DNA of 64,000 bases from Clavelina lepadiformis. Lineage: Eukaryota > Chordata > Ascidiacea > Aplousobranchia > Clavelinidae. A model generated the notes under the pieces. That model worked only from the letters and a program-made list of their open reading frames with translations. It had not been told where the DNA came from and did not search any database. The stretch is from positions 3,350,501 through 3,414,500 of the forward strand of contig NC_135241.1 of NCBI RefSeq assembly GCF_947623445.1. The letters run 5' to 3'. The position numbers were made by a program, and so were the translations under genes. Of the stretch, positions 1 to 62,308 are shown piece by piece (position 1 is the first letter of the stretch; each line of letters opens with the position of its first letter).

Positions 1-270
1 AGGTGTGTGGCATTTGTTCGACATCTGCTCGTTGAATTGCTTGTGCGGAGCCAGTCGGAAGATTGGAAGGATAACTAACTCTGTGTCTACTTCCTCGCGG
101 ACCTTTATCAGTATAATTCGAAGATTTACAGTTTTACCTAATACGTAGTATACTAAGATAAGATCAACACGGCTTTTTGGTTATGTATGTGATTTACGAA
201 TGACAGGAAGTTTTACAACCAGTTTCATGAAAATATATGTCTGAATAAAAGTTAACCTCAATCCTATCAC

Positions 271-1786
271 CTTTTTTGCGGCATATAATTTCATCTATTG
301 AAACACATTCCTTTTCATCCGGTAAGCCTCGTCTTATGTTTACAAGCTGTACAGTGTTCAGCACGCATCTTGCTACTTTCGAGTGGTCGATACTTTCCAT
401 TTGACTGCGCAGCCTGTCTCTTACAGTCATCATCGCAGGTCGCAGGGCTGGTGAGTGGTTCCAGCATTCTCTCATAACGTTTTGAAGCAAAGTTACGATT
501 GTTGCTTCATCTTCTCGGCCTTCTTCACGAAGCTCGGTTAATTTTTCTTGTATCTCAGCCTCATTGAAGCGGATGCCTTCGATAACGCGAAACACCAGTA
601 GGTTAGGCATCACACGAGCCGATTCGGGGTAGCGTCGCACCAACACAATGTATACAATAACACCAAAGCTGTAGACATCCATCGCGGTTGTGACGCGACT
701 TGAATCCGTCGTCAGACGTTCAGGAGCGGCGAATAGAAGTGTGTATTGGTTGCCTTCGTCAGGGTTATCATCATTCGGACCTTGGTTCGATAGAGTATGC
801 ATAGATAACGCGGCACCACCAAAATCGGCAACTTTGCAGTGCAAATCAGAATCCAGGAGGATATTTTGTGGTTTTAGGTCTCCGTGCGCGATCCGTGTAA
901 TTTGAAATAAATTGTGGATGTAAGTGATTGCGTCCGACACTTCATAGCATATTCGTAAAAGAAGGATGACCGATATAGTGTCGATGGTTTTGTTGAAAAG
1001 CAGGTCATGCAAGGAACCGGCCGCCATATACTTTGTAACCATTCCAATCCATCCTTCCCATTCTACCATGCCTTCGACTCGCATAACAAAATCGTGGCTG
1101 GCGAGATGCACCATCTTTATTTCCTTTAAAAACCTAAGAGAACATTTGTGCTTTATTCTGAGTGGTCCAGACCGCCTTTTTACCAGTTTTCCACCACTGA
1201 AGATTAGACCACCTCAACAATTCTCATCGACTTAAAGCCTAGTATCAGCATACTTCTTGCGTGAGGCTTCTATTTCCTGTTGAGATCCTTGTAAGGGTTG
1301 ACACTTCACAGCCAATCTGCCATGCACTCTGTGGTAACCAACAAGTACGGTACCAAAGTTGCCTCGTCCGAGTATGCTATCCTCAGCCTTGCATAGTATT
1401 TCGGATGCTTGAAATTCTTTCACGTCGTCCCGGGCTAGCAGAGCCTGTTGTCGGCAAACATATGACAATTTTATGGTTTGTGATCTTTTTCATGACTTTT
1501 GCAATTGCGATCGTTATCTAATTCGTGTATGCATTAACTCTTTTGAAGTCAAGCAAAGAATTGCACACTCACATAAGGATTGAGTTTTGAGAGATTCGTA
1601 TGTCATAACTCTTTCTCATGTGGGCCTGTACATGGGTACATTTCTTTGCTTGACCACTCTTTTGTTTATGTATAGTTCATGCAAGCCTTTATAAAAGCAG
1701 AAACTTTCAAAGCTTTAAATGGGATAAGAATCGTTAAAAGTTATATGAACTGTATGAGATCGTTTACTCACCTCAGCATCGTTCAT
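271..1786 (-). CDS. K0: kinase-TPR protein, 5' half only (runs off left edge)
   Basis: Exons in transcript order: 1772-1786 (micro-exon MNDAE), 1254-1444 (N-lobe) and 271-1133 (rest of kinase). The linker and TPR exons would lie left of base 1. The predicted protein shows the glycine loop GRGNFGTV, the AVK lysine, HGDLKPQN, ADFGG and APE, so the kinase looks catalytically competent. The exon 2 acceptor and phases match K1 to K4. N-lobe residues (QGSQQEIEA) group this copy with K3, whereas the C-lobe groups it with K1, a mosaic pattern. Bases 1-270 are intron 3. Confidence 0.85.
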
Positions 1787-58655: not shown

Positions 58656-58672
58656 TTTATTTCTATTTTATT
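58656..58672 (-). terminator. K4 polyadenylation signals
   Basis: Two AATAAA hexamers lie on the minus strand at 58,667-58,672 and 58,656-58,661. The first overlaps the last base of the K4 stop codon (TGAATAAA), implying an extremely short 3' UTR if used. Confidence 0.6.
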
Positions 58673-61600
58673 CACAGAAACCAGGGAAAGAGCAAACGCA
58701 TCGGTAAGGCAAATATTGCGTTCATGGGAGATCGAATGTTTTCAACAAATTTTCGTATTTGCTTCAATGGAACTTCCAACTCAGGATCATCTTTCATTAG
58801 GTCAACTGCAGCATTAAACTCAGTTTCAGCCTGATCGTAATCCTTAAACTTGTAGTTGCAGTAACCAAGCATCAAATGCAGCATGGATTTTATGTGAGAC
58901 ATGTTAGCTTCATCACCTAAATTTGTAGGAAGCAAACTAAAGGCTTCCTTGGCTGCATCAAAGGACTTTCTGTATTCCTTCGTTTTGATGTAGAAGCAGC
59001 TCAAATATCCCAGACAGGCGCTCAAGTACTTTCTTCTGACACGTTCTTCAGCCGTTGTACTTTGACGTATTTGTGCAGTCATCTCATTCAAAAGCGGTAT
59101 GAATTCTGATGGAATAAACCCAACTCGAGACGAAAACGATGCAATGCTGGCCACTTCTTTCATCATAACAGCTGCGAAGCCGTAGATGCAACGAATTTGG
59201 TCGTTAACATCCGGGATTAACTTACTCAGGCTCACGCCGCAACGTTGCATCGACGTTGCCTCGTTATAACATCTGTTGCTGAGTAGCTTTTCCGACATTT
59301 TCTTCAAGAGCGCCTCGCAGATTTCCACACTGTTTTCTTGAGCTGAGCTAGGCTCAGTGACATGCGCAGCCAAGTCACGACACAGACTGATTACATCGTC
59401 TTTGATGTCGAGCAAAAGTGCCATTCTCAGCGAAAGAAAAATCTTTTTAAATCGATGAACACCTTTCAACAATTTCTTCTGAAAGAACTCGAGTATTTCC
59501 CGCCCTTTATCTCTGGCCATTGTTGGGTTTTTCTCATATAGATCACATATGTCTGTAAAACAAACGAGAGTTACTTGGTCACATTGTTAAACAGTAATCG
59601 CAACTCAAAAGTAAAATGGCTACAACTAGAAACAAAAGCTGAAATATGTATGTGCCGATACGTACTTTCAAAAGTAATGCAGAGCTTGTTATATCTCCAT
59701 TCGTCTCCCTTTTCACTCTCAGCTTCCCGGTAGCAGTAATGAGCCTCGAGGAAATGTTTTTCTGCTTTTTTAAGCTTCTCAGCTTTTTCGTATTTCAGAC
59801 CTAAATTGTTGCAGCAAGCTCCAAACACGCTCAACTTTTTGCAGGAATCTCCGAAAGTTTTTTTCAGAGCGTTCACAGCATTTGAATATAGATGAATGGT
59901 CGCCAGAACCTGGTTTCCAAGCTTATCGTTGCACATTGCCATGAAATACCAGATGTTGGCTTTAAGTTTCACAACGTCTTCCTCTTCCTCTTGGTTGAGT
60001 GAGGCTATGCCCCGGAACAGACCAATCATGCAATCCAGGGCCTGATTGTTGATGGCTTTCTCCAAATCTCGATCATCCTTTACATTTTGAGCAACCGCAT
60101 ACGCAAGGGTTGCGATGCGTTTGAATGTGTCCAGTTGATGTTGGATGTCTGTGACTTTGTTGCATAAGGGAATTATTGATTGCAGGAGATGGATAAAAAT
60201 ACCGCTAGGTTTTGTTTGCAGTAAAGCTTCCACTAAATCGGTGATCTCTTTTAAGACGTTTCGGGCATATTCCTCGCTTAACTGCTTGGGTGGATCCTTT
60301 TCTACAAGTTTAATCAGTTCTTCGCAGGCGTTTAACCAACCATCTCTGTCTTTTTCTTTTAGCTTGTCACGAACGGTTTTGACTTTTTGTCGAAGGTTTT
60401 GAAATGCTAGGCATTGAAAAAAATTAACAAATCCATATGTTAATCAAGTTTTTTTGTTTAGTTTCGTGGTATGGGAAGCTAATAGTAGCCTACAATCTGT
60501 GCCCTTTATAGCAAAATATTTACACAAGTTAGATAAAAGTTATGTTAGTTGAGAAGTTAATAGCTGACGACACAAAGAGCATTGTATCACGGCAAATTTA
60601 CTTTTCAGGACAAAGTTAATGTTTAATATGTAAAAATATACTACTAATGAAATCAAAATCCTGTTAAAGCCACCATTTAGATTAGGTCATGTTTTTCTGT
60701 CACCCATGTTACGGCTAACGTGAATTATATAAAATCACAAACAACGCTGGGTCATTCTCTTTAATCTGTTATGCCTGACGTACCTGCTGACTCCTTTTGT
60801 TTGACGTCACCTGCGGGGGTTTCTTTGTTGACAGGTCTTGGCTTTTGCTTATTTGTTTGAGTGTTAGTTTGCTTATTACCTGCAAAGTTATTGTTAAGAG
60901 ACCAACCCTCAATAATGTTTTAAGCTTGAGAAAACTTGTTGATGGAATATGTTAAAAATACAGAAGTTTCTGGTTTACAACTGTACCTGATGTTGACAGT
61001 ATAGCTTGGTTGATGGTTTGACAGGCTTCTTCCTGAAACACGTCATCTCTAATGTCAACGTGAGCCAAAACGTTAGCAACATGTTGCGCCATAGTTGCAG
61101 GCTTGATAGTCGCCAGTTGTTGTTGAAGTTCATCTCGTACTTCCATCATTGGCGGACGCTCTGACGGGTCTTTCTTTACGCATCTGACCAAGAGGCTTTT
61201 AAGAAGAGAAATTATTTCGGCACCATGCTCATCATTTATTGACTTTAGATCTCCAATGTATTCGTCAATCAAAGACATGTCCAGACGAATGCCAGGGAAA
61301 ATATGTAACAACAACATTAGAAGATTCTGTTGCACTTCCGGGTACTGCTGGGTAATTGCCACGTACAGGATGACGCCGACGCTGAAAACATCCATAGCGG
61401 TCGTTAGCCTTTCGCTATCACCAGTAAGTCGTTCAGGGGCGCTAAAAACGAGAGTATATTGTCGTCCTTCTCCAGGTTTGTCTGGTCCTGCTCTAAGAGA
61501 TTTGGTGTGAAATGAAAAAGCAGCTCCGCCAAAATCAGCAACTTTACAGTGAAGATCTGAACTGAGTAAGATATTTTGTGGTTTTAGATCGCCATGTGCA

Positions 61601-62308
61601 ATTCTTTGATCTTCTAGCAATTTGTGAAGGTAGGTAATTGCGTCGGTGGTTTCGCAGGACATTCGTAGAAGTAAATCTGGAGGTATTTTTGCCAACGTGT
61701 CGCTGAATATGAGTTTGTCCATCGAACCGCCTGGCATATGCTCCATGACGATTCCGGTCCAGTCTTCACACTCAATCAAACCTTCCATGCGTACCACGTG
61801 TTTATGAACAGCCAATAACATCATTCGAACCTCGTTTAGTAATCTAGGAGACATATTGCAAGGTTCAAGGTTGTATATTTTAAGCTTGAGAATAACGTTT
61901 GTCATTTTGTCTGTGTGTTTACAACAAGCCAAAGAGTTCTTTGCTTTGAATCGCCTTATGATACTATTTTTTCTTACTCTTTTTTTGAGTTTTCCATTTC
62001 TTGCATTGAACCCTGAAGTGGTTGACACTTTATGGCAAGCTTTCCCAAAACACGGTGGTGCCCTAAGCGAACAGTTCCGAATCCTCCTTTACCAAGGATG
62101 TTGTTGTCTTTATTGCAGAAAATCTCATCGACTTGAAACCTTTTTATAGACTTGTGGAGCTCGGATGCCTACAATGCAATTTACATTTGCTTTACTTTGG
62201 GGTTGCTAGTTCCAAATTTAACACAAGCGTTACCTATTTGAAACAGTTTAACTCTGTAATTTAGCCAATATAAATATGTACAAATGCAAACTGATTTACC
62301 TTTGCCAT
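58672..62308 (-). CDS. K4: divergent protein kinase-TPR chimera (924 aa)
   Basis: Six exons in transcript order: 62300-62308 (micro-exon MAK), 61978-62168, 60987-61843, 60784-60879, 59666-60406, 58672-59552. They total 2,775 nt and all junctions keep phase. The kinase has GKGGFGTV, AIK (Lys50), LLNEV, a methionine gatekeeper (GIVMEHM), HGDLKPQN (Asp152), ADFGG (170-174) and APE. The non-RD glycine is shared with K0 to K3. The linker (GNKQTNTQTNKQ…KESAG) is polar and unlike K1's. The C-terminal half is helical with TPR-like hairpins (NNLGLKYEKAEKLKKAEKHF; YKFKDYDQAETEF). Intron positions match K1 exactly, so this is a true paralog, but it is far more diverged than K0 to K3 are from one another. 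It appears to be a single, stable copy. Confidence 0.88.

Follow-up and report, generated by a model that had tools for sequence, protein, structure and literature searches.

A 64,000-nucleotide stretch of the genome of the ascidian Clavelina lepadiformis (hereafter, the window; positions 3,350,501-3,414,500 of contig C2) carries several copies of a gene in which a RIPK-like kinase domain, devoid of the arginine of the HRD motif, is joined to a long C-terminal tail made of two modules related to tetratricopeptide repeats (TPR). The copy named K4 is a six-exon gene on the minus strand (62308-58672), with a predicted protein of 924 amino acids, followed by TGA. Its five introns are all of the GT-AG type, and their phases (0, 2, 1, 1, and 1) all agree. 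An earlier sequence-only reading of this DNA had proposed one joined kinase-TPR frame over six phased exons; the splice sites and phases bear this out to the base, and the outer ends of the gene and the linker exon (60784-60879) agree with the coordinates given at that time. The profile search proposed with that reading finds, in spliced K4, Pfam Pkinase in the kinase half (E-value 2.3e-38) and TPR_2 in the C-terminal half (9.6e-8).

Gene structure and genome-wide family

The genome searched comprises 209 Mb in 95 contigs, and 138 matches to the K4 kinase exon were found in it, 43 of them strong (E < 1e-48). Downstream of these strong matches, on the same strand and within 9 kb, both tail exons (5 and 6) were found in 35 cases, and at least one of them in 37, which supports the idea of a lineage with many kinase-TPR genes. 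The six strong matches without TPR exons comprise one on C5, one on C9, and, on C4, four near-identical copies of the kinase alone. Genes with a kinase and both TPR exons occur on four chromosome-size contigs (C2, C3, C5, and C9), and the main arrays of kinase exons lie on C2 (3.31-3.43 Mb, 12 exons), C5 (21.82-21.94 Mb, 12 exons), and C9 (14.43-14.75 Mb, 8 exons). Among 54 weaker kinase rows, both TPR exons were found in eight and at least one in 13, all on C4, in a cluster with smaller exons. These pairing counts cover 97 of the 138 kinase matches (the weakest 41 being left out), 62 of 63 exon 6 rows, and 59 of 67 exon 5 rows (weak rows on C7 and C6 being left out), as well as three further rows.

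The view that kinase and TPR exons form two adjacent genes that only seem to be joined would be in keeping with the presence, elsewhere in the genome, of related kinases lacking a recognised TPR tail and of modules standing alone. Nevertheless, order, strand, and close spacing are the same in the members compared (174-1388 nucleotides from the end of the kinase alignment to the start of the module), and both TPR exons follow the kinase on all four contigs named above. The marks of a join were scored in 30 of the 32 exon 5 sources (L020 and L027, both partial, being left out). A phase-1 AG acceptor lies near the module start in 28 of these members, at exactly the same offset in 22, and a phase-1 donor lies near the end of kinase exon 3 in 27; K4 is among the three without a donor according to the script, its donor having been read directly in the gene model. 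In-frame methionines between the upstream stop and the module are lacking in 25 of the 30. Since the members share ancestry and the splice and methionine marks were counted without a chance control, they support the join rather than test it. Overall, the two-gene explanation appears very improbable.

It is also scarcely credible that the family is largely a product of misassembly or a series of decaying genes. Such an origin would agree with the 94-98% identity of the C2 units over kilobases, with the protein-identical exons of several different copies, with a TAA in one exon 6 copy, and with the TGA found within three exon 5 matches on C9. On the other hand, members on C2, C3, C5, and C9 differ by about 40-60% from the K4 kinase, while keeping open frames, and the exon lengths of the window copies K1, K2, and K3 differ in multiples of three (863/866, 87/90, and 875/881 nucleotides in the script-delimited exons). 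The published Clavelina lepadiformis assembly, as described in part of PMC10884593, has a quality value of 67.4 and 0.6% duplicated BUSCOs, which also argues against an artefact. The copy with the in-frame TAA in exon 6 (L036, C2 at about 3.3075 Mb) is likely a recent pseudogene or a gene with a shortened tail.

K1-K3, all of them intact, belong to a second lineage, distinct from K4: compared with K1, the K4 kinase is about 50% identical, and the TPR exons 24-26%. They have two linker exons each, instead of one in K4, and their own short candidate exon 1 (MNDAE). The first linker exon of K3 is shorter than that of the other copies, and is in frame by inspection. K0 represents a fourth kinase half, whose TPR exons lie just beyond the window (locus L038). 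The sequence-only reading had counted K1-K3 as independent instances of the joined architecture; they are indeed intact joined genes, but because their kinases are 95-98% identical, they count together as one independent witness besides K4, not as three. No further kinase copy was found in the window by tblastn.

In a kinase tree of 36 rows (seven near-identical copies being left out), the presence or absence of the tail requires four changes, which fits one gain and three later losses, namely in L013, in L009 with L012, and in L034. Six distant tail-less kinases form a separate supported group. As the root of the tree is unsure, a single origin of the tail is compatible with these data, rather than shown.

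Some kinases of the genome deserve separate mention. The near-identical kinase-only copies L009, L010, L011, and L012 (C4 at 1.42, 2.00, 2.90, and 2.61 Mb), in which no TPR exons were recognised, lie scattered along 1.5 Mb, as would copies spread by a mobile segment. L014-L019 (C8, C4 at 22.3-22.6 Mb, C1, and C2 at 2.37 Mb) are more distant RIPK-like kinases, also with HGD, and the TPR module was not found in them.

Kinase half and TPR-type tail

Pfam Pkinase scores 132.6 bits for K4 and 123.3 bits for K1, compared with a cut-off of 31.7. Catalytic residues were counted in 44 sources (40 loci and K1-K4; L001-L008 were unused), 43 of which have a full kinase exon; locus L027 contains two kinases, the second of which is also L034. 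Glycine replaces the HRD arginine in all 43 aligned exons (non-RD kinases), while the catalytic aspartate is kept in 42 (the exception, L013, reads HGN), the loop lysine and asparagine in all 43, the DFG aspartate in 42, and the alpha-C glutamate in 41. The beta-3 lysine is present in K0-K4, the copies in which it was read. These counts uphold the earlier description of a non-RD loop with retained aspartate, lysine, and asparagine, and the HGDLKPQN motif, said to be common to all copies in the window, is read in K0-K4. Since the catalytic residues are almost always kept, the family should, as far as its sequences tell, consist of active kinases and not of pseudokinases.

The relatives of the kinase were ranked among solved structures only, considering the best 60 matches. 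For K4, RIPK4 comes first (98 bits), before RIPK1, RIPK3, and RIPK2 (81-78 bits), and for K1, the order is RIPK2, RIPK1, RIPK3, and RIPK4 (110, 101, 97, and 87 bits, respectively). A 15-member family profile ranks RIPK1 first (152 bits), before RIPK2 and RIPK4 (137 bits), followed by a chain named 'Tyrosine-protein kinase', IRAK4 (126 bits), TYK2, and RIPK3 (120 bits). A non-RD loop is also found in these relatives, for example, HKDLKPEN in RIPK1 and HLNLKPAN in RIPK4, as aligned with K4. Since RIPKs rank first for K4, K1, and the profile, the earlier suggestion of a new family is not supported as regards the catalytic domain; judged by its sequence, the kinase half is of a known, RIPK-like kind. 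It is called RIPK-like, rather than a RIPK1-5 orthologue, because no death domain, CARD, or ankyrin repeats were found in spliced K4 and K1 (Pfam, E ≤ 0.1), and no RHIM core motif in K1-K4. IRAK kinases have an N-terminal death domain, and the lack of such a match in K4 or K1 also sets them apart from IRAK4, in spite of its rank in the profile search. Nine death-domain matches exist in the genome, none of them beside the 43 strong kinase matches.

The tail consists of two tandem modules of 240-280 residues, each encoded by one exon (5 and 6). Their profiles are homologous (hhalign score 99.5, E-value 3.8e-14, 226 columns), with controls reaching at most 20.8 for 30 column-shuffled profiles, 62.1 for 30 block-shuffled profiles, and 19-20 when either profile was reversed; this homology was also obtained with other alignments. 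TPR_1 is detected in 11 of 17 exon 5 members and TPR_2 in 11 of 16 exon 6 members (Pfam, E ≤ 0.01), in both cases near the module end. The C-terminal half, which the sequence-only reading had described as 500 TPR-like residues, covers about 540 residues. Only about one to two repeats per module are recognised by Pfam, however, most of each module being left unassigned to TPR. The TPR sequence matches of the tail rest mostly on one repeat per module. Structure prediction, another check proposed for the K4 tail, gives all-helical models for both modules, with middling confidence (mean predicted local distance difference test, pLDDT, of 67.7 for exon 5 and 64.9 for exon 6).

The exon 5 profile matches designed TPR proteins and O-GlcNAc transferase, then kinesin light chain and GPSM2 among natural proteins, while LGN/Pins chains lead the Foldseek matches of the exon 6 model. 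The Clavelina modules nevertheless differ from kinesin light chain and LGN/GPSM2 in matching about one repeat each, and the structural resemblance is weak (best E-value 2.3e-3, root mean square deviation about 10).

Stand-alone versions of the module also exist. L049 (C7 at 16.70 Mb) and L050 (C5 at 24.18 Mb) are TPR-module frames, with no kinase match nearby. They align with the exon 5 profile almost from end to end (E-values of 4e-28 and 2e-31), contrary to their reversed copies and one shuffled copy, which gave no match. Several such kinase-less TPR-module frames, of about 280-290 residues, are clustered on C7. A simple history would be the fusion of a stand-alone module to a RIPK-like kinase, followed by duplication of the module; the opposite course, in which the stand-alone module genes derived from kinase-TPR genes through loss of the kinase, is a history still to be reckoned with.

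The tail changes faster than the kinase. In pairwise comparisons of 27 members (351 pairs), identity averages 53% for the kinase and 36-37% for the modules. The pooled ratios of nonsynonymous to synonymous substitution rates (dN/dS) for the kinase, exon 5, and exon 6 are 0.33, 0.61, and 0.86 in the C9 cluster, 0.37, 0.59, and 0.77 in the C5 cluster, and 0.25, 0.36, and 0.41 in the C2 cluster, that is, 0.36-0.86 for the tail vs. 0.25-0.37 for the kinase; slightly different cluster members gave close values. Diversifying selection on the tail is possible. In the C9 cluster, L026 and L033 have an exon 6 dS of 0, while their kinase dS is 0.125, which suggests an exchange between copies, by gene conversion or unequal exchange.

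Proposed role and rival explanations

We give about an even chance to the reading that these genes encode active RIPK-like kinases, which partners bound to their variable TPR-type tail would cluster and thereby switch, and which likely serve immune or cell-death signalling. To judge from its sequence, the tail would be of a kind likely to bind partners, which favours the earlier suggestion that it recruits them. The kinases are probably cytosolic. Their tails would bind partner proteins differing between family members, this binding would bring kinase domains together, and the clustered kinases would phosphorylate one another or a common target further down the pathway. Because the loop lacks the HRD arginine, proximity would be the likely switch, rather than classical activation-loop charge pairing. 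RIPKs are immune or cell-death kinases, and those of vertebrates connect infection with cell death by way of death-fold and related tails. By this kinship, the setting would most probably be signalling in innate immunity or cell death.

Several points weigh against this proposal. The immune setting would come from the relatives alone, and their lead over other kinases is modest in places: after the RIPKs, K4 matches an EGFR chain and IRAK4 at 71 bits, and K1 matches LYN and LCK at 72 bits. As the tree fits tail loss at three places, the kinase may act without its tail. In three C9 members, the exon 5 match extends across a TGA close to its end, so that module 1 could be shorter there or spliced in another way. 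K4 exon 5 itself has no Pfam match at E ≤ 0.01, confidence in the tail models is middling, residues 163-231 of the exon 5 model, including its TPR signal, have a pLDDT below 50, and Foldseek gave no match below an E-value of 0.001 with either module model. Finally, the bootstrap intervals of the exon 6 dN/dS (0.57-1.36, 0.56-1.05, and 0.24-0.78 in the three clusters) include 1 or lie below it, so that relaxed constraint accounts for the rate of the tail no less well than diversifying selection; moreover, the intervals of tail and kinase overlap widely in the C2 cluster.

The same order, kinase then C-terminal TPR motifs, is known from the plant BSK kinases. According to parts of PMC6336344, the C-terminal TPR motifs of Arabidopsis BSK3 contribute to homo- and heterodimers. 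BSK3 is anchored by myristoylation of Gly2. The likeness to BSKs, which concerns domain order only, makes it conceivable, if somewhat unlikely, that the Clavelina tail mainly forms homo- or heterodimers or one constant complex, with kinase output being secondary and the fast change of the tail arising from redundancy of the tandem copies; this is the main rival explanation. The tail dN/dS, not shown to exceed 1, and the members that seem tail-less by loss, agree with such a scaffold. However, the catalytic residues are kept in nearly all 43 exons, and the kinase dN/dS of 0.25-0.37 would be needless in a pure scaffold. Moreover, the predicted starts (MAK in K4, MNDAE in K1) lack Gly2 for myristoylation, and the Clavelina tail, unlike that of BSKs, consists of a module of 240-280 residues in two copies.

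It appears quite improbable that the family serves reproduction or development, for example, in the germ line, with tandem duplication and tail change arising from sexual conflict. The arrays, the fast tail, and the conserved kinase would be equally expected in such a family; the closest solved kinases being RIPKs speaks against it, but only weakly, because kinase similarity does not fix a pathway.

The RIPK-like signalling kinase favoured here can be compared with RIPK1-RIPK4, which are the closest solved kinases for K4, K1, and the family profile, and of which RIPK1 and RIPK4 are also non-RD. What distinguishes K4 and K1 is their double TPR module, in place of a death domain, CARD, or ankyrin repeats. 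RIPK4 also combines an N-terminal kinase with a C-terminal interaction region, as described in sections of PMC9573974, which surveys the RIP kinases of animals. The sections concerned name ANK, RHIM, CARD, LRR, Roc/COR, WD40, and death domains, with ZU5 and Zalpha in amphioxus RIP kinases. The words TPR and tetratricopeptide are absent from the main text of this survey by word search, and from a sea cucumber RIPK study that includes Ciona (PMC11507063). No animal kinase-TPR family was found in the open-access literature, among the matches listed. The statement that no named protein has the kinase-TPR order thus stands for the open-access papers searched, but not for plants, where BSK3 has it, as parts of PMC6336344 describe. 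As subscription papers and protein databases lay outside the literature search, the novelty of the combination of kinase and tail, of the doubled module, and of the family size in one ascidian is provisional.

A bolder and rather unlikely extension is that, in this chordate close to vertebrates, these genes constitute a repertoire of germline-diversified intracellular recognition kinases, with a constant kinase and a doubled TPR module varied by tandem duplication and exchange, by which the colony would sense microbes or non-self without death-fold adaptors. Their logic would be comparable to that of plant NLR or receptor-kinase repertoires. 

More generally, dozens of RIPK-like kinases with TPR tails in one chordate would mean that the kinase has been joined to a recognition or assembly part other than those of the vertebrate RIPKs. 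The family would offer a set of natural tail variants, all attached to one conserved kind of kinase. Clavelina being a colonial ascidian, it also touches on the intracellular sensing of microbes and non-self by colonies.

Features and neighbouring genes in the window

The exons of the five copies present in the window are collected in Table 1.

Table 1. Positions of the kinase-TPR genes and their exons in the window
Feature	Position	Strand	Basis
K4 exon 1 (MAK: start codon and three residues), predicted	62300..62308	-	ATG, GT donor, phase 0; exon 1 candidates equally short in K0-K3
K4 exon 2 (glycine loop GKGGFG, beta-3 lysine AIK)	61978..62168	-	GT-AG, phases 0 and 2
K4 exon 3 (alpha-C Glu, HGDLKPQN loop, DFG, APE, remaining kinase)	60987..61843	-	Pkinase on spliced protein; 43-exon residue count
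K4 linker exon, polar, phase 1-1	60784..60879	-	Splice-site and phase reading
K4 exon 5, TPR module 1	59666..60406	-	Splice reading; alignment A4; family TPR_1; all-helical model
K4 exon 6, TPR module 2 and stop codon	58672..59552	-	Splice reading; TPR_2 above gathering score; all-helical model
K1 gene	exons 10162-10148, 9820-9630, 9510-8645, 8476-8336, 8085-7996, 7783-7058, 6828-5954	-	Script-delimited exons and candidate exon 1
K2 gene	exons 21031-21017, 20689-20499, 20379-19517, 19357-19217, 19028-18942, 18686-17961, 17731-16851	-	Script-delimited exons and candidate exon 1
K3 gene, exons 1-3	29332-29318, 28990-28800, 28680-27818	-	Script-delimited exons and candidate exon 1
K3 gene, short linker 1	between 27817 and 27379, ends not delimited	-	In frame by inspection
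K3 gene, remaining exons	27378-27289, 27033-26308, 26076-25202	-	Script-delimited
K0, exon 1 and kinase exons	1786-1772, 1444-1254, 1133-271	-	Cut by window edge (feature 1..1786)

Elsewhere in the genome (C4:1225079-1229218), a weak kinase match is followed, about 3.7 kb further downstream on its own strand, by a death-domain match, and this locus is possibly a classical kinase-death gene.

Between 1 and 30 kb, the window is made of tandem units of about 8.3-10.9 kb, 94-98% identical over kilobases, each of which contains a transporter-like gene and a kinase-TPR gene. Kinase-TPR copies extend to the left of the window, as far as 3.307 Mb on C2. The second tandem family, which is multi-exonic and interleaved with the kinases, is encoded on the minus strand at about 31-53, about 2.6-4.2, 11.0-15.1, and 21.9-23.5 kb. 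Two of its exons, once joined, match the Pfam SSF family (sodium:solute symporter) with an E-value of 3.5e-4, just under the cut-off, and these transporter-like genes presumably resemble SLC5 carriers.

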